Below are positions 3,319-35,223 of a stretch of 37,476 nucleotides of DNA, in pieces. The position numbers and the translations under genes were made by a program. The stretch's first letter is position 1. Each line of letters opens with the position of its first letter. The notes below the pieces were generated by a model that was given only the letters and a program-made list of their open reading frames with translations, did not search any database and was not told where the DNA came from. Source of the DNA: a virus; IMG/VR virus record IMGVR_UViG_3300048592_000777, positions 1 through 37,476 of that record, one strand, 5' to 3'.

Positions 3319-3520
3319 CCCCGCCGCTTCCCCGCCACCCTCCCACCGCGCCCCACGACATCATGCGCTGTTCGATTCCTGGCGGAGGGACCCCCGTAGG
3401 GGAACACGGCGACACACCATGACACTTTCCCTCTGCGCCGAGTCACACAACGTCACACGGCGACGCGCGATCCCCGCCATAATCCCGCCACTTTTCCCGC
3501 CACTTGGGGAGGCTGGAAGA
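3319..3520. other. candidate attP and integrase control region
   Basis: This 202-bp noncoding stretch lies directly upstream of the integrase. It holds short direct repeats of the kind recombinases use as arm sites: GTCACAC at 3442-3448 and 3452-3458 (10-bp period), and TCCCGCCACTT at 3483-3493 and 3495-3505 (12-bp period). A CCCC-GTA-GGGG hairpin lies at 3392-3402. A CATAAT at 3478-3483 could be a -10 for the integrase, with only a weak -35. The stretch TTCGATTCC at 3371-3379 resembles a tRNA T-loop, as expected for a tRNA-targeting phage, but no full T-stem can be built. The core is therefore not fixed. Confidence 0.4.
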
Positions 3521-18795: not shown

Positions 18796-20673
18796 TCAGG
18801 TGATCGACGAGGCGTAGGAGAAGCCGCCCGGATACCGGACGCCCACGTCGCAGGTGTACCAGCCCCGCACCGCGGTGAGGCCGCGGGTGAAGTCGCTGAA
18901 CGGGTTGGTCATGAGCTCCAGCACGCCCCACTCGGCCAGGATCACGCCGGGCCAGTAGCCGAAGAGCATCGTCGCCGCGGACATCTGCGCCGAGCTCATG
19001 GCGGGCATGTCGAACAGCGAGCCCATCAGCATCGACCCGCGCCACAGCCGCTCGGTGCCCGTGCTGGGCAGCTCCGGGCGCGCCATCAGCAGCGCGGCCA
19101 CGGCCGGCGTGGTCACGTAGCCGCAGCCGGGCAGCAGCGCGTTGGCCGCTGCGACGTCGGCCTGGAACTCCAGGATGCCGGCGGCGGCGAGCGACGTGCC
19201 GGTGACCGAGCCGATCCCGGCCGTGTTGACGATGCCCGTCGGCTGCCCCGAGGCGCCAGACCCGCGCAGGACACCGACGTCCACCGCCAGCGCGATGTCG
19301 CGCGCGATGGAGCTCAGCACCAGCGACTCGGCGTCCGGAGTGGACTGCTGCATGAGCTGGTGCGAGAGCTCGGTCAGCGCCGCAACGTTCTTGGGCGCGA
19401 GCGAGAGCTGGCCGAGCGTCGGCTGGCTCTCGGTGATCTGGGTGGTCTCGTCGGCCAGCCAGTACGCCGAGTTGCCGGCGGTCATCTTCGGGATGGTGAC
19501 GTTCCCGACCAGGCCGGAGAGCCGGGTGATGCCCATGCGCAGCGCCACCGAGGTGTTGCGCAGCAGGTCGATGAACGAGCCCGGCTGGTTGTCGGTGGAC
19601 ACCAGGTAGTTCGAGCCGGACACGCCCGCGACGGTCATGTCGCGACGGCCGGGAAGCTCGGCCATCAGCACGTCGAGCGGCACGAAGAACGAGGTCTCGG
19701 CGCGCGGCAGGCGGTGCAGCCGGTTGCTGATCTCCTTGTTGCACTCGAGCTCGAACCCGGCCTTGTCCCAGCTCTTGTTGGAGGCCGCCCGCAGCGCGCG
19801 CATGAGGCTGTAGCGCTTGGTGTCGGCCGCGCTGAGGTCCAGCCGCGTGACCGCGTGGCGGCTGTTCTTGCCGCGCTCGGCAAGGACCTCGACGATGCCG
19901 TCGGCGACCTCGTTCATGTCGGCGCCGGTCTCGATCCACTGGCGCTCGATGCGCTCGTCGATCTTGTTGGCACGGCAGAGGTTGACGATCGCGGCCTTGC
20001 GCTTCTCCTCGATCTGGGTGGCCGAAAACTTCTCGGGCTTCGGCGACTCGGTCGCCTTCGGTTCCGCGACTGCGCCCGCGGCGGCGTTTTGCACATTGGA
20101 CATGGTGTCCTCCGTAGGAGCGGCAACTGCCGCGGGTTTCACTTCAGCGGCCCGGACCATCCGGACCTCGAATCCATCGCTGTCGGCGGCCTGCCGGCCG
20201 AGCCCGACCGTCGGGTCCGCCGGCACCGTCACGATCGAGACCTCATAGGGCTCCCAGTCCGTGGCGGTGAAGACGTTGCGCTTCTTGTCCTCCTCGACCA
20301 CGTGCAGCCGGTAGCCCAGCGAGACGTTGCGCAGGCCGCCGGAGAGCATCGCGCCGACCTCCTGCGCCCGCGCGGTGTCGAAGAGGTGCGCGTCGACCAC
20401 CAAGCGCCCGCCCTCCAGCCGCGCGCCGTCCACGATGCCGATCGGGTCGTCCCAGTTGTGGTTGAAGAGCAGCGGCAGCGCGCCGCGGTCCACGCGGTCC
20501 ATGCGCACCGCGCCCTTGGCGTGCGAGAGCACCTCCTCACCGAACCAGCGCTCCACCGGCTGCTCGCTCGAGGCCGGGAAGGTGAGCCGGGTCACGCCCT
20601 TCTCGGCCCGCAGCTCGATCGACGCGGCCGGCAGGTCGCGCGCGAGCGAGGGCACCTTGATCGTTTCGGTCAT
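18796..20673 (-). CDS. prohead protease - major capsid protein fusion
   Basis: A 625-residue protein in two parts. Residues 1-160 are an HK97-type prohead protease (S78/U35): His72 in LLFNHNWDDPIG, Ser118 in LRNVSLGYR, and Glu144 in EPYEVSIVTVPAD form the likely triad. Residues about 265-625 are an HK97-fold major capsid protein (RAASNKSWDKAGFE, FFVPLDVLMAEL, VTIPKMTAGNSAYWLADET, SGQPTGIVNTAG, GWYTCDVGVRYPGG). Between them lies a charged segment (PEKFSATQIEEKRKAA) that may act as scaffold. A GGAGG lies before the ATG at 20673. Such fusions occur in other phages; cleavage during maturation is expected. A second start lies inside at 20103. Confidence 0.93.
   Translation of the reverse strand: MTETIKVPSLARDLPAASIELRAEKGVTRLTFPASSEQPVERWFGEEVLSHAKGAVRMDRVDRGALPLLFNHNWDDPIGIVDGARLEGGRLVVDAHLFDTARAQEVGAMLSGGLRNVSLGYRLHVVEEDKKRNVFTATDWEPYEVSIVTVPADPTVGLGRQAADSDGFEVRMVRAAEVKPAAVAAPTEDTMSNVQNAAAGAVAEPKATESPKPEKFSATQIEEKRKAAIVNLCRANKIDERIERQWIETGADMNEVADGIVEVLAERGKNSRHAVTRLDLSAADTKRYSLMRALRAASNKSWDKAGFELECNKEISNRLHRLPRAETSFFVPLDVLMAELPGRRDMTVAGVSGSNYLVSTDNQPGSFIDLLRNTSVALRMGITRLSGLVGNVTIPKMTAGNSAYWLADETTQITESQPTLGQLSLAPKNVAALTELSHQLMQQSTPDAESLVLSSIARDIALAVDVGVLRGSGASGQPTGIVNTAGIGSVTGTSLAAAGILEFQADVAAANALLPGCGYVTTPAVAALLMARPELPSTGTERLWRGSMLMGSLFDMPAMSSAQMSAATMLFGYWPGVILAEWGVLELMTNPFSDFTRGLTAVRGWYTCDVGVRYPGGFSYASSIT
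20101..20114 (-). promoter_or_regulatory. internal ribosome binding site inside the protease-capsid gene
   Basis: On the leftward strand CGGAGGACACCATG gives GGAGG 5 bases before an in-frame ATG ending at 20103 (Met191). Starting there would produce a 435-residue protein with scaffold and capsid parts but no protease. The match to a Shine-Dalgarno is as good as that of the gene's main start. This would let the phage make many capsid subunits per protease, but it is inference from sequence alone. Confidence 0.6.
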
Positions 20674-22256
20674 CGCTTGCCTCCAAGAGAGAAGACCCGC
20701 CGGGGCGGGTCTTCGGATGCGTCGCTTTCCTCGGCCTCGGTCTCGGCCTCGGCCTCGTCCGGCTCGGGCGGTTCCGGCGCGGCGTTCTCCGCCGCGGCCA
20801 CGGCCGGATCGGTGTCGAACTGCAGCCCGGCCTCGGCCATGAGGTCGAGCTCGCGGCGGCGCTGCTTGAGCACGTCCTCGATGTCGGCGCCGGCGCCCGT
20901 GGTGGCGATGACGTCGCTCACGGTGATGAACCCCGCGCGCACCGCCTCCTTGTAGGCCTCGACCTCCTTGGTGGGGTCGATCCAGCTCCAGCCGCGCGGC
21001 TTGAAGCGCGCCGCCTCGAACTTGGCCGGGTCCATGGCGTACTCCTCCACGGGGATCGCCGGCACGGCGCGCGCGAGCACGGCCTGCCGCAGCCACTCCC
21101 GGTGGACGATGTCGCGGAAGTTGCGCACCCACCACATCTGCAGCGTGCGCCACAGATCCCGGTCGTCCAGGAGCGCGAGCCGGCTGGAGGAGTAGTTGCT
21201 TTGCGAGTAGTCGCGCGAGAGGCTTTCGTAGCTGACGCCGCAGCCGGCGGCCACCTCGCGCAGCATGGCGCGCATGAAGGGATCGAGCGCGGTGTTGGGC
21301 CGGTTGGGCGCGACGAAGTTGAGCTTCTCGCCGGGCTTGAGGTGCTGCACCAGGCCGGGCGAGATCTCGACCTGCGCGGTGCCGTCGGTCTGCAGCTCGG
21401 CGTTGGGCGCGAGCTCCTCGTCGCTCTCGATGGTGGCCATGTAGGAGGCGGCGCCGCGCGCGGCGACGATCTCCGCCTCGGTATAGCCGTCCATGTCGTT
21501 CAGTTTGCGCACGGCGGCGTGCAGCCACGGCTCGCCGCGGGTCTGCGGCCAGCGCTCCACGATGCGCAGGTGGATGATCTGCTCGGCGGGCACGCGCTCC
21601 AGGCGGTCGCTGCGCTCCAGGCCGACCCGCAGCTCGCCGGGGTGACGCTCGCGGATCCAGTAGGCCACCGGCCGGTAGAAGCGATCCACCTCGACGCCCA
21701 TGCGGATGGTGTTGCCCGGATCCGACGCGCCGACCTGGTACTCGTCGGCCAGCCGCTCCGGCTCGATGAGCTCCAGCGCGAAGGGCACGCGCGAGTCCCC
21801 GAAGGCGCGGTAGTGCTTGCGCAGGAAGATCTCGCCGGCCTCGAACACCTGCCCCATGGCGGCCCGCTCGAGGTCCGCGAAGTGCATGACGCCGCCGGTG
21901 TGGCACGAGGAGCCGCGGCACCAGGCGGCCCACGCATCCTCGATGGCGGCGTTGACGTTCTCCCGCAGCGTGTCGCGCGAGCTCATGACCTGCGCCTGCA
22001 GGCCGACGCCGGCGCCGATGACGTTGTTGACCACGATGACCTTGGCGCGCTTGGCGTAGGCGGCATCGCGCACCAGCGCACGGGAGCGCGCCCGGAGCGT
22101 GGTGAGGCTGGACACGAGCTCGCTGTCGGAGCTGCTGTTCGCGGTGTTCCAGCCGGCGGTCAGCCGCGACTGGCGCGCCGCGGCGTACATCCGCACCGCG
22201 GTCTTGGGCCCCGGCGCGATCCAGCGCGCGATGCTGTGGCGCAGTTTTTCAAGCAC
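20670..22256 (-). CDS. portal protein (lambda B-like)
   Basis: A 528-residue portal. Family features: an early helix-rich region (WNTANSSSDSELVSSLTTLR, SRALVRDAAYAKRAKVIVVN), a centre with YWIRERHPGELRVG and EQIIHLRIVERWPQTRGEPW (the portal_2 signature), and a stem-like helix near LLDDRDLWRTLQMWWVRNF. The last 40 residues are very acidic (EPPEPDEAEAETEAEESDAS). It forms the 12-fold ring through which DNA enters and leaves the head. ATG at 22256 overlaps the 22249 gene; its stop overlaps the protease-capsid start. Order after terminase matches lambda A-W-B-C. Confidence 0.94.
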   Translation of the reverse strand: MLEKLRHSIARWIAPGPKTAVRMYAAARQSRLTAGWNTANSSSDSELVSSLTTLRARSRALVRDAAYAKRAKVIVVNNVIGAGVGLQAQVMSSRDTLRENVNAAIEDAWAAWCRGSSCHTGGVMHFADLERAAMGQVFEAGEIFLRKHYRAFGDSRVPFALELIEPERLADEYQVGASDPGNTIRMGVEVDRFYRPVAYWIRERHPGELRVGLERSDRLERVPAEQIIHLRIVERWPQTRGEPWLHAAVRKLNDMDGYTEAEIVAARGAASYMATIESDEELAPNAELQTDGTAQVEISPGLVQHLKPGEKLNFVAPNRPNTALDPFMRAMLREVAAGCGVSYESLSRDYSQSNYSSSRLALLDDRDLWRTLQMWWVRNFRDIVHREWLRQAVLARAVPAIPVEEYAMDPAKFEAARFKPRGWSWIDPTKEVEAYKEAVRAGFITVSDVIATTGAGADIEDVLKQRRRELDLMAEAGLQFDTDPAVAAAENAAPEPPEPDEAEAETEAEESDASEDPPRRVFSLGGKR

Positions 22257-28916: not shown

Positions 28917-30899
28917 TCAGCGCCAGCCGTTGACGAACCCGCCGCGGCGCGGCATCCAGCGGCGCGGCTGCTCCGCGGCCTCGGGCTGCGGCGCCACGGC
29001 TTCCGGCTCGGCGCCCGCGGGGCGATCGAACAGCGTGGCCTGCGTGATCGCGCTCTCCAGCGCCTGCCACTGCGCCTCGCTCTTGATGTCGGTGCGCTGC
29101 GAGCGCGCGGCGTGCAGCGCGAGGATCGTGCAGTCCAGCGCTTCATTCCGCCGGCCGGCCTTGCGCTGCCACACTTTCTTGCCGCGCGGCCCGCCGCGGG
29201 CCGGCGCCTTGACCTCGGCGGTGAGCTGCTCGAAGAAGTCGCGCCGGATGCCCTGGTACCAGTGCATGCGCCCGGGGCCGCTCTCGCGAAGCTGCAGGCG
29301 CCCGCCGCCATCGGCGCCGAGCACCAGGTCCTTCGCCCGCGAGACGCCGACGATGTACGGCTTCAGCCCGTACTTGGCGGCCTTCTGGGTGGCGGTGATG
29401 TCGATCGACCGCTCTGCCGGCTTGCGGAAGATCTCCGCGGTGTCCGTGCTCGAGCCCTTGGTGGCCATCACGCCGCGCCGCCGGCGCGCGCGCGCGTAGT
29501 GATACACCGCGTCCGCGGTGTTGCCGTCGCCGGAGTCGATCGACATCGCGCTCACGCCCAGCTCGCCGCCGTTCACGTGCGCGAAGGTCCGGTCGAGCGT
29601 CAGCGCGTCGAGCTCGGCCCAGACCGGGTCGGCCTTGTCGATCGGCCGGCCGTAGAGCTCGCCCCAGTACAGGATCCAGCACTCCTCGCCGCGGCCCCAG
29701 GCCGCGATCACCACCGCCAGGCGGTCGTGCTGCACGTCCACGCCCACCGTCACCAGCAGACCGCCGGCGGGCACGGTGAACTCCTCGTAGCCCTCGGCGC
29801 GCGCGGCGAGCGCGTCCTCGTCCGGCACGTCGTTCTTGTACGCCCAGGGCTTGCCCAGCGTGCTGTTCCAGAAGTTGATGAGCCCGCCCACGTCACCGGC
29901 GCGCGCATCCGCCTCGGCCTGCAGCAGCTTCTCGACCAGCTTCGGCAGCGTGCTCTGCGGGAAGCCCGACACGAGCTCGTTGATGTAGAAGCCCATCACC
30001 CCGCGGAACTCCGCGGTGGCCACCCAGTGGCCGCGGCGCGCGTTGCGGATGCGCTCCGCATCCGTCCACAGCACCCCGCAGCCCGGGCAGCGGTAGCGCG
30101 CCGTCTCCGGCAGCGCGGTGCCGTACACCGGGTGCGATCGCGCCTGGTCGTGCAGCCAGGTCACGTTCTCCCACTCGAGCGGCGCCGCTTCGCCGCACTC
30201 GTGGCAGGGCACGTGCCACTGCTCCTTGTCGGAGGCCTCCATCGCGAGCGCGATCGCCGAGAGGCCCTCGATCGTCGGCGTGCCGCCCACCAGCACCTTC
30301 TTGTCCTGGTAGGTCTTGCCGCGCTCCTCGAGCAGCGCGATCGAATCGCCCTGCCCCTTCAGGTTCACGTTGCAGTCGTCGGGCTCCTCGACGATCAGGC
30401 GCTTGGCGTTCGTGCTCTTCACGCCGCCGGTGCTGTTCGAGCCCACCAGCTTGATGAAGCCGCCGGGGAACGTCTTCGTGTCCACCCGGTTCGACTTGTC
30501 GCGGCTCTTCAGCACGATCTTCGACTGCAGCGATCGCGTCGCCTCGACCATCGGCTCGAACTTCTCGCTGTTGAAGTCCTTGCCCGTCTTGTCCCGCGGG
30601 AACATCACGATCATCGGCGCCGGGTCGACGTCGATGGTGTACCCGAGGTAGTTGTTGATCACGCCGTCGGTCCACCCGATCTGGGCCGACTTCTGCATCA
30701 ACACCTTCTGGACCTTCCGGTCCGTGAGCGCCTCTAGCGGCTTACGCAACCAGGGCGTGAGCGTCAGCGAGAACTTACCGGGCTTCGCCGACAGGCTGGA
30801 CAGGTAGCGCCGCGACTCCGCCCACTCCGCCACCGTCATCCGCACCGGAGGTGCGAAGCGGCGCATCACCCTCCGGGTCAGGCTCTGCAGTGGGGTCAT
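28917..30899 (-). CDS. terL: terminase large subunit (GpA family)
   Basis: A 660-residue GpA-type terminase. Residues 69-78 (QKSAQIGWTD) form the lambda-like Walker A; VEEPDD at 170-175 is the Walker B and coupling motif. Two zinc-type pairs, CHEC (232-235) and CPGC (271-274), are typical for GpA. Asp388 in VGVDVQ begins the nuclease domain, with further acidic residues near MSIDSGDG. It translocates and cuts DNA at cos. The start is uncertain: ATG at 30899 or 30866, the latter with GGAGGG just before it; both lie inside TerS. Length is close to lambda A (641 aa). Confidence 0.95.
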   Translation of the reverse strand: MTPLQSLTRRVMRRFAPPVRMTVAEWAESRRYLSSLSAKPGKFSLTLTPWLRKPLEALTDRKVQKVLMQKSAQIGWTDGVINNYLGYTIDVDPAPMIVMFPRDKTGKDFNSEKFEPMVEATRSLQSKIVLKSRDKSNRVDTKTFPGGFIKLVGSNSTGGVKSTNAKRLIVEEPDDCNVNLKGQGDSIALLEERGKTYQDKKVLVGGTPTIEGLSAIALAMEASDKEQWHVPCHECGEAAPLEWENVTWLHDQARSHPVYGTALPETARYRCPGCGVLWTDAERIRNARRGHWVATAEFRGVMGFYINELVSGFPQSTLPKLVEKLLQAEADARAGDVGGLINFWNSTLGKPWAYKNDVPDEDALAARAEGYEEFTVPAGGLLVTVGVDVQHDRLAVVIAAWGRGEECWILYWGELYGRPIDKADPVWAELDALTLDRTFAHVNGGELGVSAMSIDSGDGNTADAVYHYARARRRRGVMATKGSSTDTAEIFRKPAERSIDITATQKAAKYGLKPYIVGVSRAKDLVLGADGGGRLQLRESGPGRMHWYQGIRRDFFEQLTAEVKAPARGGPRGKKVWQRKAGRRNEALDCTILALHAARSQRTDIKSEAQWQALESAITQATLFDRPAGAEPEAVAPQPEAAEQPRRWMPRRGGFVNGWR

Positions 30900-31359
30900 A
30901 GACGCTCAGGTTTCTCAGGACGCCCTCGACCACCTCGCGCAGCACGTCGCGTTTCACCTCGTCGAGGTCGAGCTCGGTGCGGTCGGGCAGCATCAGCAGC
31001 TCGGTGCGGATCGCGTCCACGACGCGGCCCCACTGCGGCTCGATCTCCGCGAAGGGCACCAGCTGGCCGCGCTTCTCGGCGATCTCGAGCTCGATGCGAT
31101 CGGCCTGCACGCGCGCCAGCCGATCCTTCTGCGTCTCGCCGCCGGCGGCCTTGTTCACCTCACGGCGCAGCAACCAGGTCAGCGCCTTCGCCGTGTCGAA
31201 GAGGTGCTCGGCGCCCGTCGCCGCGCGCGGCTCGAAGGGCAAACCCTCGGCCTGCCACTCCCAGATCGTCTTCGGCGCCACGCCGAAGATCTCCGCCAGC
31301 TCGGCCTGGTCCACCTTACGCCCGGCCGCCTCCCCGATACTCCGCTCGACGATGCTCAT
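30775..31359 (-). CDS. terS: terminase small subunit (Nu1-like)
   Basis: A 194-residue protein with an N-terminal winged HTH (KVDQAELAEIFGVAPKTIWE, then WQAEGLPFEP) as in lambda Nu1, an AEHLFDTAKALTWLLRREV region, and a long coiled helix (QKDRLARVQADRIELEIAEK, RGQLVPFAEIEPQWGRVVDA) for assembly with the large subunit. It binds the cosB-type site near its own gene. The last 42 codons overlap terL out of frame (30775-30899, 125 bases), which is long. A G-rich stretch lies just in front of the ATG. Confidence 0.92.
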   Translation of the reverse strand: MSIVERSIGEAAGRKVDQAELAEIFGVAPKTIWEWQAEGLPFEPRAATGAEHLFDTAKALTWLLRREVNKAAGGETQKDRLARVQADRIELEIAEKRGQLVPFAEIEPQWGRVVDAIRTELLMLPDRTELDLDEVKRDVLREVVEGVLRNLSVYDPTAEPDPEGDAPLRTSGADDGGGVGGVAALPVQPVGEAR

Positions 31360-31533: not shown

Positions 31534-32052
31534 TTACGCGCTGGTGACAACTTTCGCCCCCTTAGCGGAATTGGGGTGATTTTGTCCGGCGCGCGGGCGG
31601 CGTGTCAAGCCTTTTCGGTTGGCCTCCAGGTCGTTGAGGTGCTCCATGAGGCGCACGTGGGCGCTGTGCAGACGGGCGAACAGCGTGGATTTGGCGCATC
31701 CGCAGAGCTGGCAGGTGCGCTCCGTGGTGAGGCGCGCGGCCTGGCGCCTGCTCTCGTCGCGCAGGGTGCGGTCGAGTTCGGCGAACGTGGCGACGCCGCC
31801 GTACACGAGCAGGACCACGCGCTGCAGATCAGCGGGCAACGCTCGCACGCCCTGCTCGAGCTCGATGTGGTCGACGGCCATGCCGGTGGAGGCGTGGCCC
31901 GTGCGTGACCCGGTGCCCCGTGCCCCGCCGATGATGAAGCCCCGGGCATCACGGATGTCTGCGAGGGGGGAGCGGTAGCTGTAGGCCCGCTGGAGCATGG
32001 CGGCTCGCCAGTGCACCCAGTCGAGGAGGCGGTTGTTGATGTGCTCGATCAC
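31534..32052 (-). CDS. putative late regulator (antiterminator Q / RinA-like)
   Basis: A 172-residue protein beginning EHINNRLLDWVHWRAAML. It has a mid-section with a helical DHIELEQGVRALPADLQRVV segment and a C-terminal HTH: ERTCQLCGCAKSTLFARLHS, then AHVRLMEHL. The layout (N-terminal Trp-rich part, sigma-like helix, HTH near the end) matches phage late regulators placed just upstream of the terminase. Two of the three nearby cysteines (CQLCGC) may bind a metal. It probably activates or antiterminates late transcription at the promoter region ahead of terS. The family assignment is from pattern only. Confidence 0.75.
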   Translation of the reverse strand: MIEHINNRLLDWVHWRAAMLQRAYSYRSPLADIRDARGFIIGGARGTGSRTGHASTGMAVDHIELEQGVRALPADLQRVVLLVYGGVATFAELDRTLRDESRRQAARLTTERTCQLCGCAKSTLFARLHSAHVRLMEHLNDLEANRKGLTRRPRAGQNHPNSAKGAKVVTSA

Positions 32053-32351
32053 GCTTCCATACCTCAGTCTAGGTGTGGAAGCAGGTGTGGAAGAAAACGC
32101 CCTTTCGAATCAGACACCTTCCATACCTCCATACCTTCCATACCTGATTTGTGAAAACACGATTCTTTTTCGGCCTACGTCAAGGCGAAACGCTACGTCT
32201 ACGCGCGTGCGCGCACGTATGCGCGCGTGGAAAACCAGTGTGGAAGGTATGGAGGTATGGACAGCCCTTGATTTGCAAGGCGTTTTCTGTCCATACCTCC
32301 GCGCACTGTCCATACCTCGGGGGCACGCACCAGGGGATTCCTGCGAGGGGC
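32053..32351. other. candidate replication origin with CCATACCT boxes
   Basis: This 299-bp noncoding stretch lies between the VapE-type helicase gene and the late regulator. It holds eight exact copies of CCATACCT: rightward at 32057, 32121, 32129, 32138, 32291 and 32310, and reversed (AGGTATGG) at 32245 and 32253. Two AGGTGTGG variants lie at 32071 and 32083. The block 32120-32143 is nearly the reverse complement of 32238-32261, centred at 32190. The centre has an AT-rich run (TTGTGAAAACACGATTC) and a GTGCGCGCAC palindrome. Iterons around an AT-rich core are the normal structure of a phage or plasmid origin. Confidence 0.75.
32055..32317. repeat. CCATACCT iteron cluster with large-scale dyad
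   Basis: The eight exact boxes and two variants fall in three groups: a lone box at 32057, a run of three at 32121-32145, two reversed boxes at 32245-32260, and two forward at 32291-32298 and 32310-32317. AAAACGCC (32094-32101) and GGCGTTTT (32279-32286) mark an outer inverted pair at about the same centre. Two CTACGTC copies (32175 and 32193) lie in the middle. Confidence 0.88.
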
Positions 32352-34433
32352 TTACTCATCGGTCTGGCCCCCTTTCTCGTAGAAGAATCGCTCCGGGCTT
32401 CCGCGCACCTCGCGCTTGACCCAACCCAACTTGCGCAGACAGCGCCCCACGCGCGTGGCCATGGCCCGCTCGTCGAGGCGGTCTCTCGGGATCTTCAGGG
32501 CCTCGGCGAGCAGCTCGCGCATGGTGAGCAGCTCGGTCCGACGGCTTTCAGGCAGCCGGCCGGCGCGCGCGTCCTCGGCGGCCTGGTTGGCGATCTCGGC
32601 GCGCGATCGAACGCCCATGTCGGCGGCCTCGCGGTGGAGGTAGCCTTCGATGACGGCCAGCCACGGGTCGGCGATCTCGCGCCGTTCCTGCTGCGCCTGG
32701 CAGAGCAGCTCCTCCTCCGGCGTGGGGAAGAAACGCTCGCCCGCCTTGACGCGGTGGACGGCCTCGGCGAGGAGCTGGTCGCGATCGCGCCGCAGGCCTT
32801 CGAGGTCGAACCCCGCGCGGTGACAGTGCACCGGCCAGTAGCGCCGGTTGCCGGTGGTGTCGCGGAAGTACTCGTGCTCGTTGGTCGTGCCGGCGAACGC
32901 GCACGACCGCGCGAAATCCTGGCTCCGCTTGCCGTAGGGCAATCGGTAACGGTCCGACGTGCGGCTGAAGAACGTCTTGGCGGTGGTCGACTCAACTTTA
33001 TTGAACGAGTCGAGCTCGGCGATCTCCGCGATCCACTTGCCGCGCAACGCCTCCCAGCCCTCCTTCTGCGAGAGCGAGAACGGCGTATCCATCGCCCACT
33101 CGCCGCCGAGCACGCTGATGGCGGACGACTTGCCCAGGCCGCCGAGGCCTTCGAGGATCAGCACATAGTCGAACTTCACGCCGGGCGAGAGCGCGCGCTT
33201 GACCGCGCCCATGAGCCACATGCGGCCGACGGCGAGGTAGTAGGCTTCCTTGGCCGCGATGTCGGCGGCGGTGTCCTCGGGCGTGACGGCCTCGCCGGCG
33301 CCGCAGTACGTGAGCAGCCAGCGATCGAGCCGCGGCTTGCCATCCCACTTGAGGCCCGTGAGGAACTCGACCAGCGGATTGCGGGCGTTGAGCTTCGCCA
33401 CCGCCTGGACGGCCTCGGCCACCAGCGAGGTCCTAAGCTTCAGCACGCCGGTCCGTGAGGACAGCCAGGCGTGCGTGAACGAATCGTCCGTGTCGGTCCA
33501 CTCGCCCACGCGGCCGCCCTCGAACGGCGGCGGCTTGCCCTTCTTAACGGCGTGCGCGAACGAGTCCTCCCAGATCACGCCGCGCCACTGCTTGTGCTGG
33601 CTGAGGATCTGGATCACGTTGTGCAGCTCGGGGAGGATCGGCCCGTGGCCGTCCTTGCGGATGAGGGTGTGGCTCCACGGCTCCTCGGCCACTGCGGGCG
33701 CAGGGCCGGGCGCAGCCACCGGTTTATGCGCCTGGCCAAGGTGCGCGAACATCCACTCGCGCAGACGCTCGAACGTCCAGCCGTCCTCCAGCGCGCGCGC
33801 GATGTTCCAGCCGTGGGGCAACTCCTCGACGGCAGCATCCACCACGCTGAACGGCACCGCGCGAAACCCGCGCGAGATCTCCGCGATGCGGAAGGCCGCG
33901 CGATAGTTGGGCTGCGCCCCCTTGGGCTTGATCGCGCCGGCGGCCGGATCGCCGCCCTGCACGCGGGTGCGCTCCGCGCCGTGGTCGGGCCAGATCGCCA
34001 CCACGCGATCGCGCAGCACCGACCAGTCCACCTCGTCCACCTTGCGGATGCCGCCCGGCCAGGACACCACCACCCACTCGTCGAAGCCGTGCTGCGCGAG
34101 ATCCGCGCACGCCTCGTCGAACACGATGAGCACTGAGGCCTCCGGCTGCGCGCCGAGGCGATCGAGCCCGTAAAGCGGCCGGAACTTGGGGAACACCATC
34201 CAGCGCCACGCGTGCTCGCCCTGGCCGTTGCGGCACCAGGTGCGCGTGAGCTGCGTCTCCCCGCCGGCGGACGTGCCGAACGTGCAGACATGGCCGAGCA
34301 GGCGCCCCTGCTCGTCGCGGTAATCGAAGATGCGCCGGGGCGCCCCGCGCACCGGATGCGTGAACGCCGCGGCCGGCGCCGTGTCGGGGACAGGCAGGAC
34401 CGGTAACCAGTCGGAGCGCACACGGGTGGTCAC
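32352..34433 (-). CDS. VapE/VirE-type replicative helicase with Toprim-like N-terminus
   Basis: A 693-residue protein. The C-terminal half is the virulence-associated E (VapE) SF3/AAA-like ATPase: P-loop LEGLGGLGKSS (428-438), Walker B IAEIAELDSF (468-477), and a sensor region GTTNEHEYFRD followed by RRYWPV. The N-terminal 240 residues contain VLIVFDEACADLA and VVAIWPDHG, acidic strands like those of Toprim-fold primases. In many temperate phages such proteins replace separate primase and helicase. It starts with GTG at 34433 without a good ribosome site. The origin-like repeats lie just beyond its stop, which supports replication. Confidence 0.88.
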   Translation of the reverse strand: MTTRVRSDWLPVLPVPDTAPAAAFTHPVRGAPRRIFDYRDEQGRLLGHVCTFGTSAGGETQLTRTWCRNGQGEHAWRWMVFPKFRPLYGLDRLGAQPEASVLIVFDEACADLAQHGFDEWVVVSWPGGIRKVDEVDWSVLRDRVVAIWPDHGAERTRVQGGDPAAGAIKPKGAQPNYRAAFRIAEISRGFRAVPFSVVDAAVEELPHGWNIARALEDGWTFERLREWMFAHLGQAHKPVAAPGPAPAVAEEPWSHTLIRKDGHGPILPELHNVIQILSQHKQWRGVIWEDSFAHAVKKGKPPPFEGGRVGEWTDTDDSFTHAWLSSRTGVLKLRTSLVAEAVQAVAKLNARNPLVEFLTGLKWDGKPRLDRWLLTYCGAGEAVTPEDTAADIAAKEAYYLAVGRMWLMGAVKRALSPGVKFDYVLILEGLGGLGKSSAISVLGGEWAMDTPFSLSQKEGWEALRGKWIAEIAELDSFNKVESTTAKTFFSRTSDRYRLPYGKRSQDFARSCAFAGTTNEHEYFRDTTGNRRYWPVHCHRAGFDLEGLRRDRDQLLAEAVHRVKAGERFFPTPEEELLCQAQQERREIADPWLAVIEGYLHREAADMGVRSRAEIANQAAEDARAGRLPESRRTELLTMRELLAEALKIPRDRLDERAMATRVGRCLRKLGWVKREVRGSPERFFYEKGGQTDE

Positions 34434-34814: not shown

Positions 34815-35006
34815 TCACGGCCCGTCGGCATCGGGTAGCTTTCTCGCATGCCCATACAGCCACGCGGCGAGGATCACCCGCACCAGGTCGGAGACCGAGC
34901 GCTCGTCCGCGGCGGCCGCGCGCATGATGTCGAGCTCCATCTGCTCGCTCACGCGGATCTTGGGCAGCTCGGCGGTGAGCTTGTCGGGCGTGCGGTGCTC
35001 AGACAT
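34815..35006 (-). CDS. ribbon-helix-helix regulator (63 aa)
   Basis: A 63-residue protein with an Arc/MetJ-type core: a beta strand LPKIRVS, helix EQMELDIMRAAAADERSV and SDLVRVILAAWLYGH. The strand would insert into the major groove as a dimer. The ATG at 35006 overlaps the Cro-like gene's end; the upstream in-frame Met at 35039 is inside that gene. It is probably a second early regulator, co-transcribed with the Cro-like gene, and could act on the operator at 5171 or others. Confidence 0.75.
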   Translation of the reverse strand: MSEHRTPDKLTAELPKIRVSEQMELDIMRAAAADERSVSDLVRVILAAWLYGHARKLPDADGP

Positions 35007-35223
35007 TGGTCGGTGTCTCATGAGGCATGCCGAACACATCCGGGCGCAGCTCGTGGCGCGTGACGGCCCCGCCGGTCAGGCGCTCCACGGCGAGCACGCG
35101 CTCGGGCGGCACCCCGCGCTGGCGCCACCCGGTGATCGCCTGCTTGGTCACGCCCAGCGCATCGGCCAGCGCCTTGGCGCTGCCGACCGCCTCGATCGCA
35201 CGGTCCAGGGGAGTCTGTTGCAT
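34999..35223 (-). CDS. Cro-like regulator (YdaS family HTH)
   Basis: A 74-residue HTH protein: DRAIEAVGSAKALADALGVT and KQAITGWRQRGVPPERVLA are the pattern of YdaS/Cro proteins, with a RLTGGAVTRHELRPDVF end common in this family. It starts at 35223. The likely promoter -10 (TTTACT) ends only 6 bases upstream, so the mRNA may begin at or near the ATG (leaderless). It should repress the lysogenic repressor and open the lytic path. Its stop overlaps the ribbon-helix-helix gene. Confidence 0.87.
   Translation of the reverse strand: MQQTPLDRAIEAVGSAKALADALGVTKQAITGWRQRGVPPERVLAVERLTGGAVTRHELRPDVFGMPHETPTNV

Follow-up and report, generated by a model that had tools for sequence, protein, structure and literature searches.

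Facing iteron arrays 3' of a VapE helicase gene as a candidate replication origin in a temperate tailed phage

On a virus contig, iteron boxes occupy the space that separates a VapE-type helicase gene, on its 3' side, from a small neighbouring gene, and this raises the question of what these repeats do and which protein reads them. The contig, of which the entire 37,476 bp were analysed (the window), is classed as linear and has genes for an integrase, a Cro-like regulator, small and large terminase, major head, tape measure and tail fibre proteins. From this gene content the phage is temperate and tailed. The best explanation of the boxes, which we hold with high confidence, is that they form a phage replication origin read by the winged helix at the C-terminus of VapE. 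The genes near the boxes are as follows.

30775-31359, Nu1-like small terminase gene, starting about 700 bp from the boxes
31534-32052, minus strand, small gene on the far side of the boxes
32352-34433, minus strand, VapE-type primase-helicase of 693 aa, proposed replication initiator (PF05272, E 2e-66)
34815-35039, ribbon-helix-helix gene upstream of VapE (weak match, E 0.07)
34999-35223, minus strand, Cro-like regulator gene upstream of VapE (PF14549, E 5e-11)

The 8-mer CCATACCT is found in eight exact copies at 32057-32317, spanning 261 bp, and is absent from the rest of the window; 0.14 copies are expected by chance in the whole window and no shuffle gives eight. Two one-mismatch copies, CCACACCT, are on the minus strand at 32071-32078 and 32083-32090, both filling conserved slots. 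The count, the positions and the chance expectation agree with the sequence-only reading made earlier, which had reported eight exact 8-mers and two variants as far beyond chance and had placed them beside a VapE-type helicase gene, as the PF05272 match bears out. The central blocks that it described as near-perfect inverted copies (32120-32143 and 32238-32261) are reverse complementary at 23 of 24 positions, and both are contained in a 68-nt inverted repeat (32083-32150 and 32231-32298) that is 72% complementary. The first box is 34 bp past the VapE stop codon and the facing arrays flank a 90-bp core. Drawn with the VapE gene at left, the boxes read < < (38 bp) >> core <<< (39 bp) > > <, the final pair of > being the CCACACCT variants. 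Its parts, by 9-mer, are given from the VapE end.

32056-32317, proposed replication origin, whole
32309-32317, plus strand, accessory outer iteron TCCATACCT, exact
32290-32298, plus strand, outer inverted iteron in the conserved 38/39-bp slot, exact
32279-32287, minus strand, arm motif GAAAACGCC of this arm, matching the arm consensus
32253-32261, minus strand, inner iteron of the VapE-proximal array, exact
32245-32253, minus strand, inner iteron of the VapE-proximal array at 8-bp pitch, exact
32236-32244, minus strand, degenerate third inner iteron TCCACACTG, 9 bp beyond the preceding box
32137-32145, plus strand, inner iteron of the VapE-distal array, exact
32128-32136, plus strand, inner iteron of the VapE-distal array, exact
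32120-32128, plus strand, inner iteron of the VapE-distal array, exact
32093-32101, plus strand, arm motif GAAAACGCC, second conserved outer-arm element, matching the arm consensus
32083-32091, minus strand, outer inverted iteron, variant TCCACACCT, in the conserved 39-bp slot, one mismatch
32071-32079, minus strand, accessory outer iteron, variant TCCACACCT, one mismatch
32056-32064, plus strand, accessory outer iteron TCCATACCT, exact

The arm motif, with a consensus of approximately CTGAAASCC, is located between the outer and inner boxes and recurs in 34 non-redundant origins. Symmetry of the left and right arms beyond this shared motif is slight (52% vs 48%, permutation p 0.005). The 9-mer TCCATACCT is a mirror repeat, reading the same backwards; this is probably incidental because the sister iteron TCCTAACCT has no such symmetry.

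A scan of a sequence collection for paired TCCATACCT reported at least 119 stretches. Among the matches listed, the facing-array clusters accompany a VapE gene, start within approximately 50 bp of its stop codon and have a single geometry. Since these loci had been chosen by motif, a second set of VapE relatives was fetched by protein alone. Facing tandem arrays were then called by a scan blind to iteron sequence, at scores above the 99th percentile of upstream controls (approximately 1% expected). Arrays of 8–9 bp iterons facing across a 60–120 bp core are present 3' of VapE in 128 of 200 loci, in answer to the suggestion of the sequence-only reading that box clusters be sought beside VapE in other phages. 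The protein-selected loci have a called array in 93 of 165 cases (28 of 43 when made non-redundant), with about a third of the non-redundant ones having no called array within 800 bp. Boxes and geometry are thus conserved beside VapE in many phages, rather than being lost where the helicase is kept. Among the matches listed, the pitch is 9 bp for 212 of 315 neighbouring same-strand boxes, 11 being the next commonest, and in 117 of 121 cases a spacing of 38 or 39 bp separates the outer inverted box from the inner array. Core length varies between loci and the geometry is otherwise near constant. The window conforms, with its CCACACCT variant at 32083-32091 sitting in the conserved outer slot.

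The iteron sequence varies by lineage while the geometry stays fixed. Lineage iterons include TCCATACCT, TCCTAACCT, TCCCAACCT and GTCCYACC, as well as GTCCCAAT, GTGGTCAC and GGTCCGGG, among others. In many Pseudomonas loci the arrays are approximately 370–460 bp downstream of the VapE stop codon, which suggests an intervening gene after VapE; phage Haddon has one annotated gene of this sort. In annotated Staphylococcus, Paenibacillus, Corynebacterium, Bacteroides and Rhodobacter phages the gap that follows VapE contains iterons of other sequence, and four clear cases are listed here.

L293 3833-4172, Staphylococcus phage, post-VapE repeats TGATGCAACA
L294 3782-4063, Paenibacillus phage, post-VapE repeats CGTCAACA
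L295 3806-4081, Corynebacterium phage, post-VapE repeats similar to TTGTGACAAC
L296 3791-4070, Bacteroides phage, post-VapE repeats CGTTTACC

The array scan called none in Variovorax phage VarioGold and Burkholderia phage Mica. Two stretches (L093 2531-2871 and L105 4111-4545) carry six same-direction CCATACCT boxes, and the sequence examined around them gave no match to VapE. Many lone box pairs from the collection scan are also without a VapE match, and are probably mostly chance occurrences at that pattern length. A literature text search for the CCATACCT 8-mer gave only unrelated matches among the matches listed, and searches of the literature on VapE, or virulence-associated protein E, and replication origins gave nothing on this layout.

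The core has two distinct parts, corresponding to the AT-rich run and palindrome that had been noted between the central blocks.

32141-32170, AT-rich core stretch, candidate unwinding element, 70% AT
32200-32229, alternating purine/pyrimidine (Z-DNA-prone) core tract, a strict run of 30 bp containing the palindrome GTGCGCGCAC (32207-32216)

The AT-rich 30-mer ties for the highest AT content in the window, where the mean is 29.6%. The VapE-distal half of the core is 58% AT and the VapE-proximal half 35%. This asymmetry is conserved at the end away from VapE, where the last tenth of 66 non-redundant cores averages 70% AT. The strict alternating run is the longest anywhere in the window. In the same 66 cores the longest alternating run, with one break allowed, has a mean of 25.7, against 9.5 in shuffles and 9.7 in windows from the same loci, and 95% of these cores reach p 0.05 or less against shuffles. 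The tract is not a universal mark of VapE origins, since the Staphylococcus, Corynebacterium and Rhodobacter examples have none. Hairpin or cruciform potential of the core was also considered; it is modest against dinucleotide shuffles (mean z -1.3 in the 66 cores, -0.57 in the window) and is therefore not separable from the alternation. It is conceivable, if somewhat doubtful, that the alternating tract is a working part of the origin that, under negative supercoiling, forms Z-DNA or a cruciform beside the AT-rich stretch and in this way permits or guides the opening of the DNA by VapE. If so, it would be a conserved non-B-DNA element of a large phage origin family, and it raises the question of the part played by non-B DNA in origin opening.

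The AlphaFold2 model of VapE (mean pLDDT 90.6) has a TOPRIM primase-like N-terminus, the VapE AAA+ helicase and a C-terminal winged helix. The nearest solved structure is PriRep1 (7pds), with Z 35 over 415 residues and a profile E of 7e-97; the match, from residue 249 to 691, covers the helicase and winged helix. Going by the entry titles, PriRep1 is a SaPI protein. The SaPI5 primase-helicase is the next structure match after it (Z 12), and residues 10 to 235, approximately, match TOPRIM primases. The parts relevant to recognition of the iterons are listed here.

32355-32549, minus strand, codons of the C-terminal winged helix (residues 629-693, approximately), from the secondary structure of the model
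VapE residues 671-675 and 683-687, wing strands holding the candidate specificity residues K673 and F683, from the model and column scans

The TOPRIM motifs (residues 101-156, approximately) look degenerate, with FDE and DHG in place of the EGE and DCD of most relatives, and the N-terminus is shorter than in most relatives. Degenerate motifs are also present in loci L018, L101, L124, L128 and L134. Primase activity may have been lost in this clade of VapE.

Since the repeat sequence changes together with single residues of the helicase tail, a putative protein-DNA recognition code can be read from these loci. The first of two unbiased column scans compared 51 non-redundant proteins across 751 alignment columns, divided into those with CCATACC/CCACACC and those with CCTAACC/CCCAACC iterons. 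Residue 683 ranks first of the 751 columns, with a p of 5e-10, followed by the next column overall at 2e-6 and the next C-terminal column at 0.003, all of these column p-values ignoring ancestry. It is Phe, His or Ser in 34 of 34 proteins of the CCATACC/CCACACC class and Tyr in 14 of 17 of the CCTAACC/CCCAACC class, the other three of which lack Tyr683. Ancestry is taken into account in a switch test, using independent pairs on supported branches of a tree built without the C-terminus. The iteron class changes 11 times on this tree, and residue 683 follows it in 8–9 of 9 independent switches, with none opposite (p 0.004). The direction is F to Y with CCATACC to CCTAACC/CCCAACC. The clade of the window shows both states: Phe accompanies CCATACC in the window and L134, and Tyr accompanies CCTAACC in L128. 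In a second scan, of 70 Pseudomonas-type proteins, residue 673 is first of 738 columns (p 3e-17, ancestry ignored), being R in 47 of 47 with GTCCC and K in 22 of 23 with GTCCT/GTCCA. There are only four independent switches at this residue, of which three agree, and it is not significant alone. In the predicted wing hairpin, residues 673 and 683 fall on its two strands. On this sequence evidence VapE is the likely iteron binder, via its C-terminal winged helix. The N-terminal domain had been proposed as the part to footprint; the co-variation points instead to the C-terminal domain, and the N-terminus is primase-like and apparently catalytically degenerate.

The correlation of residue and iteron could also arise by linkage, with recombination carrying the neighbouring origin along with the 3' end of vapE, in which case it would have no bearing on binding. 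Joint exchange is possible, as the two are adjacent in most loci. However, linkage would be expected to lift many C-terminal columns, and only 683 stands out from these in the first scan. Likewise, the Pseudomonas arrays are several hundred bp past the stop codon, yet 673 ranks first. Linkage is therefore an improbable source of the correlation. It is similarly improbable that VapE binds the iterons only for expression control or plasmid-like partition, with replication starting elsewhere. The co-variation supports recognition rather than initiation and so fits such a role, but replication has been demonstrated for SaPI and PICI elements that share this arrangement (PMC6092414), and the core has both an AT-rich stretch and a tract prone to non-B structure. 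Autoregulation by VapE through these sites could occur as well.

VapE is the only neighbour gene that accompanies the boxes throughout. The sequence-only reading had named as candidate binders the helicase and the ribbon-helix-helix or Cro-like protein, and of these the helicase is favoured: of 201 loci, 1 has a relative of the ribbon-helix-helix gene and 51 have a relative of the Cro-like gene. An operator cluster through which such a regulator controls early genes is suggested by the presence of both genes upstream of VapE, but the boxes go with VapE, are 3' of it and co-vary with residues inside it, making an operator very unlikely. A cosB-like packaging site for the small terminase, whose gene starts nearby, is least credible of all, since only 18 of 201 loci have a small terminase relative within 3.5 kb and the boxes track VapE, and in VarioGold the annotated cos end is approximately 1.6 kb from the post-VapE gap, although that gap has only weak iterons.

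The conserved boxes, their geometry, their position next to VapE and the co-variation favour the candidate phage replication origin of the sequence-only reading. Its proposed check of GC skew at 32190 is uninformative, the cumulative extremes being at 3,503 and 28,911, away from the boxes. For an origin recognised by VapE, we infer the following course of initiation. The phage's own VapE-type initiator helicase would bind the origin, its C-terminal winged helix reading each 9-bp iteron and the wing hairpin (673, 683) reading the middle bases. A pair of assemblies in opposite orientation, plausibly hexamers, would sit on the inverted arrays, each array having its outer inverted box at 38–39 bp. 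Driven by ATP, VapE would next melt the core, with the AT-rich end as the most likely place, and the alternating tract may aid opening or absorb supercoiling.

Several known replicons bear comparison. The alpha protein of P4 is a primase-helicase that also binds iterons at its origin, which needs two separated regions, ori and crr. In contrast, the window has a single iteron cluster, though the record may be a fragment. In lambda-type origins and Rep iteron plasmids the iterons adjoin an AT-rich unwinding element and the initiator is not itself a helicase. The only initiator candidate in the window is the VapE helicase, with the iterons 3' of its gene rather than within it, and no Pfam match to a Rep initiator, as expected for a Rep-type iteron plasmid, was found among the neighbouring ORFs scanned. 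The helicase Cch2 of SCCmec binds direct repeats downstream of its own operon via its C-terminal domain, at a putative origin for which the available part of the account gives just three 5-nt iterons and describes no facing arrays (PMC7581432).

The sequence-only reading knew of no standard name for the layout, and there is a close precedent in the SaPI and PICI origins. PICI origins have two iteron sets around an AT-rich region, and a rep-ori segment replicates a plasmid in test (PMC6092414). Recognition by SaPI Rep is through the C-terminal domain (PMC7581432, PMC6092414). As in SaPI/PICI (Pri-Rep/Rep), the proposed initiator helicase gene in the window is followed directly by two iteron sets flanking a putative melting region, and its VapE is homologous to Pri-Rep, PriRep1 being the nearest structure. 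The phage differs in being tailed and temperate with its own head, tail and packaging genes; a satellite has no full set of these, and large terminase, major head, tape measure and tail fibre genes are all in the window. Judged from descriptions of SaPI/PICI origins, the window also differs in the fixed outer inverted boxes at 38–39 bp, the second arm motif and the alternating tract beside the AT-rich stretch. By analogy, the proposed origin would work like a SaPI/PICI origin with a homologous initiator, though it belongs to a tailed phage and has further conserved features of its own. The organisation of PICI origins was stated to be shared with no other known bacterial replicon (PMC6092414), a claim that no longer holds. 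The extension of this origin plan to tailed phages bears on the source of the satellites' replicons.

VapE is a common phage gene, named for an association with virulence and often annotated as a hypothetical protein or simply as a helicase. If the origin reading is true, a VapE gene marks the phage initiator and the next few hundred bases the origin. This would apply across the Proteobacteria and, with a few examples to go on, also in Firmicutes, Actinobacteria and Bacteroides. The many natural iteron variants with matched proteins, together with two single-residue correlates, would make origin recognition by initiator helicases directly testable.

Three other genes of the window have features of their own. 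The small gene at 31534-32052 has no convincing Pfam match and has relatives in 4 of 201 loci; its sole match is phrog_4300 (E 1e-6), for which function is unassigned. The Cro-like gene has a stronger match to PF15943, the YdaS toxin family, than to P22 Cro. An ORF of 1,045 aa (18796-21933, minus strand) matches both head maturation protease and major head protein families, which suggests a fused protease-capsid protein.
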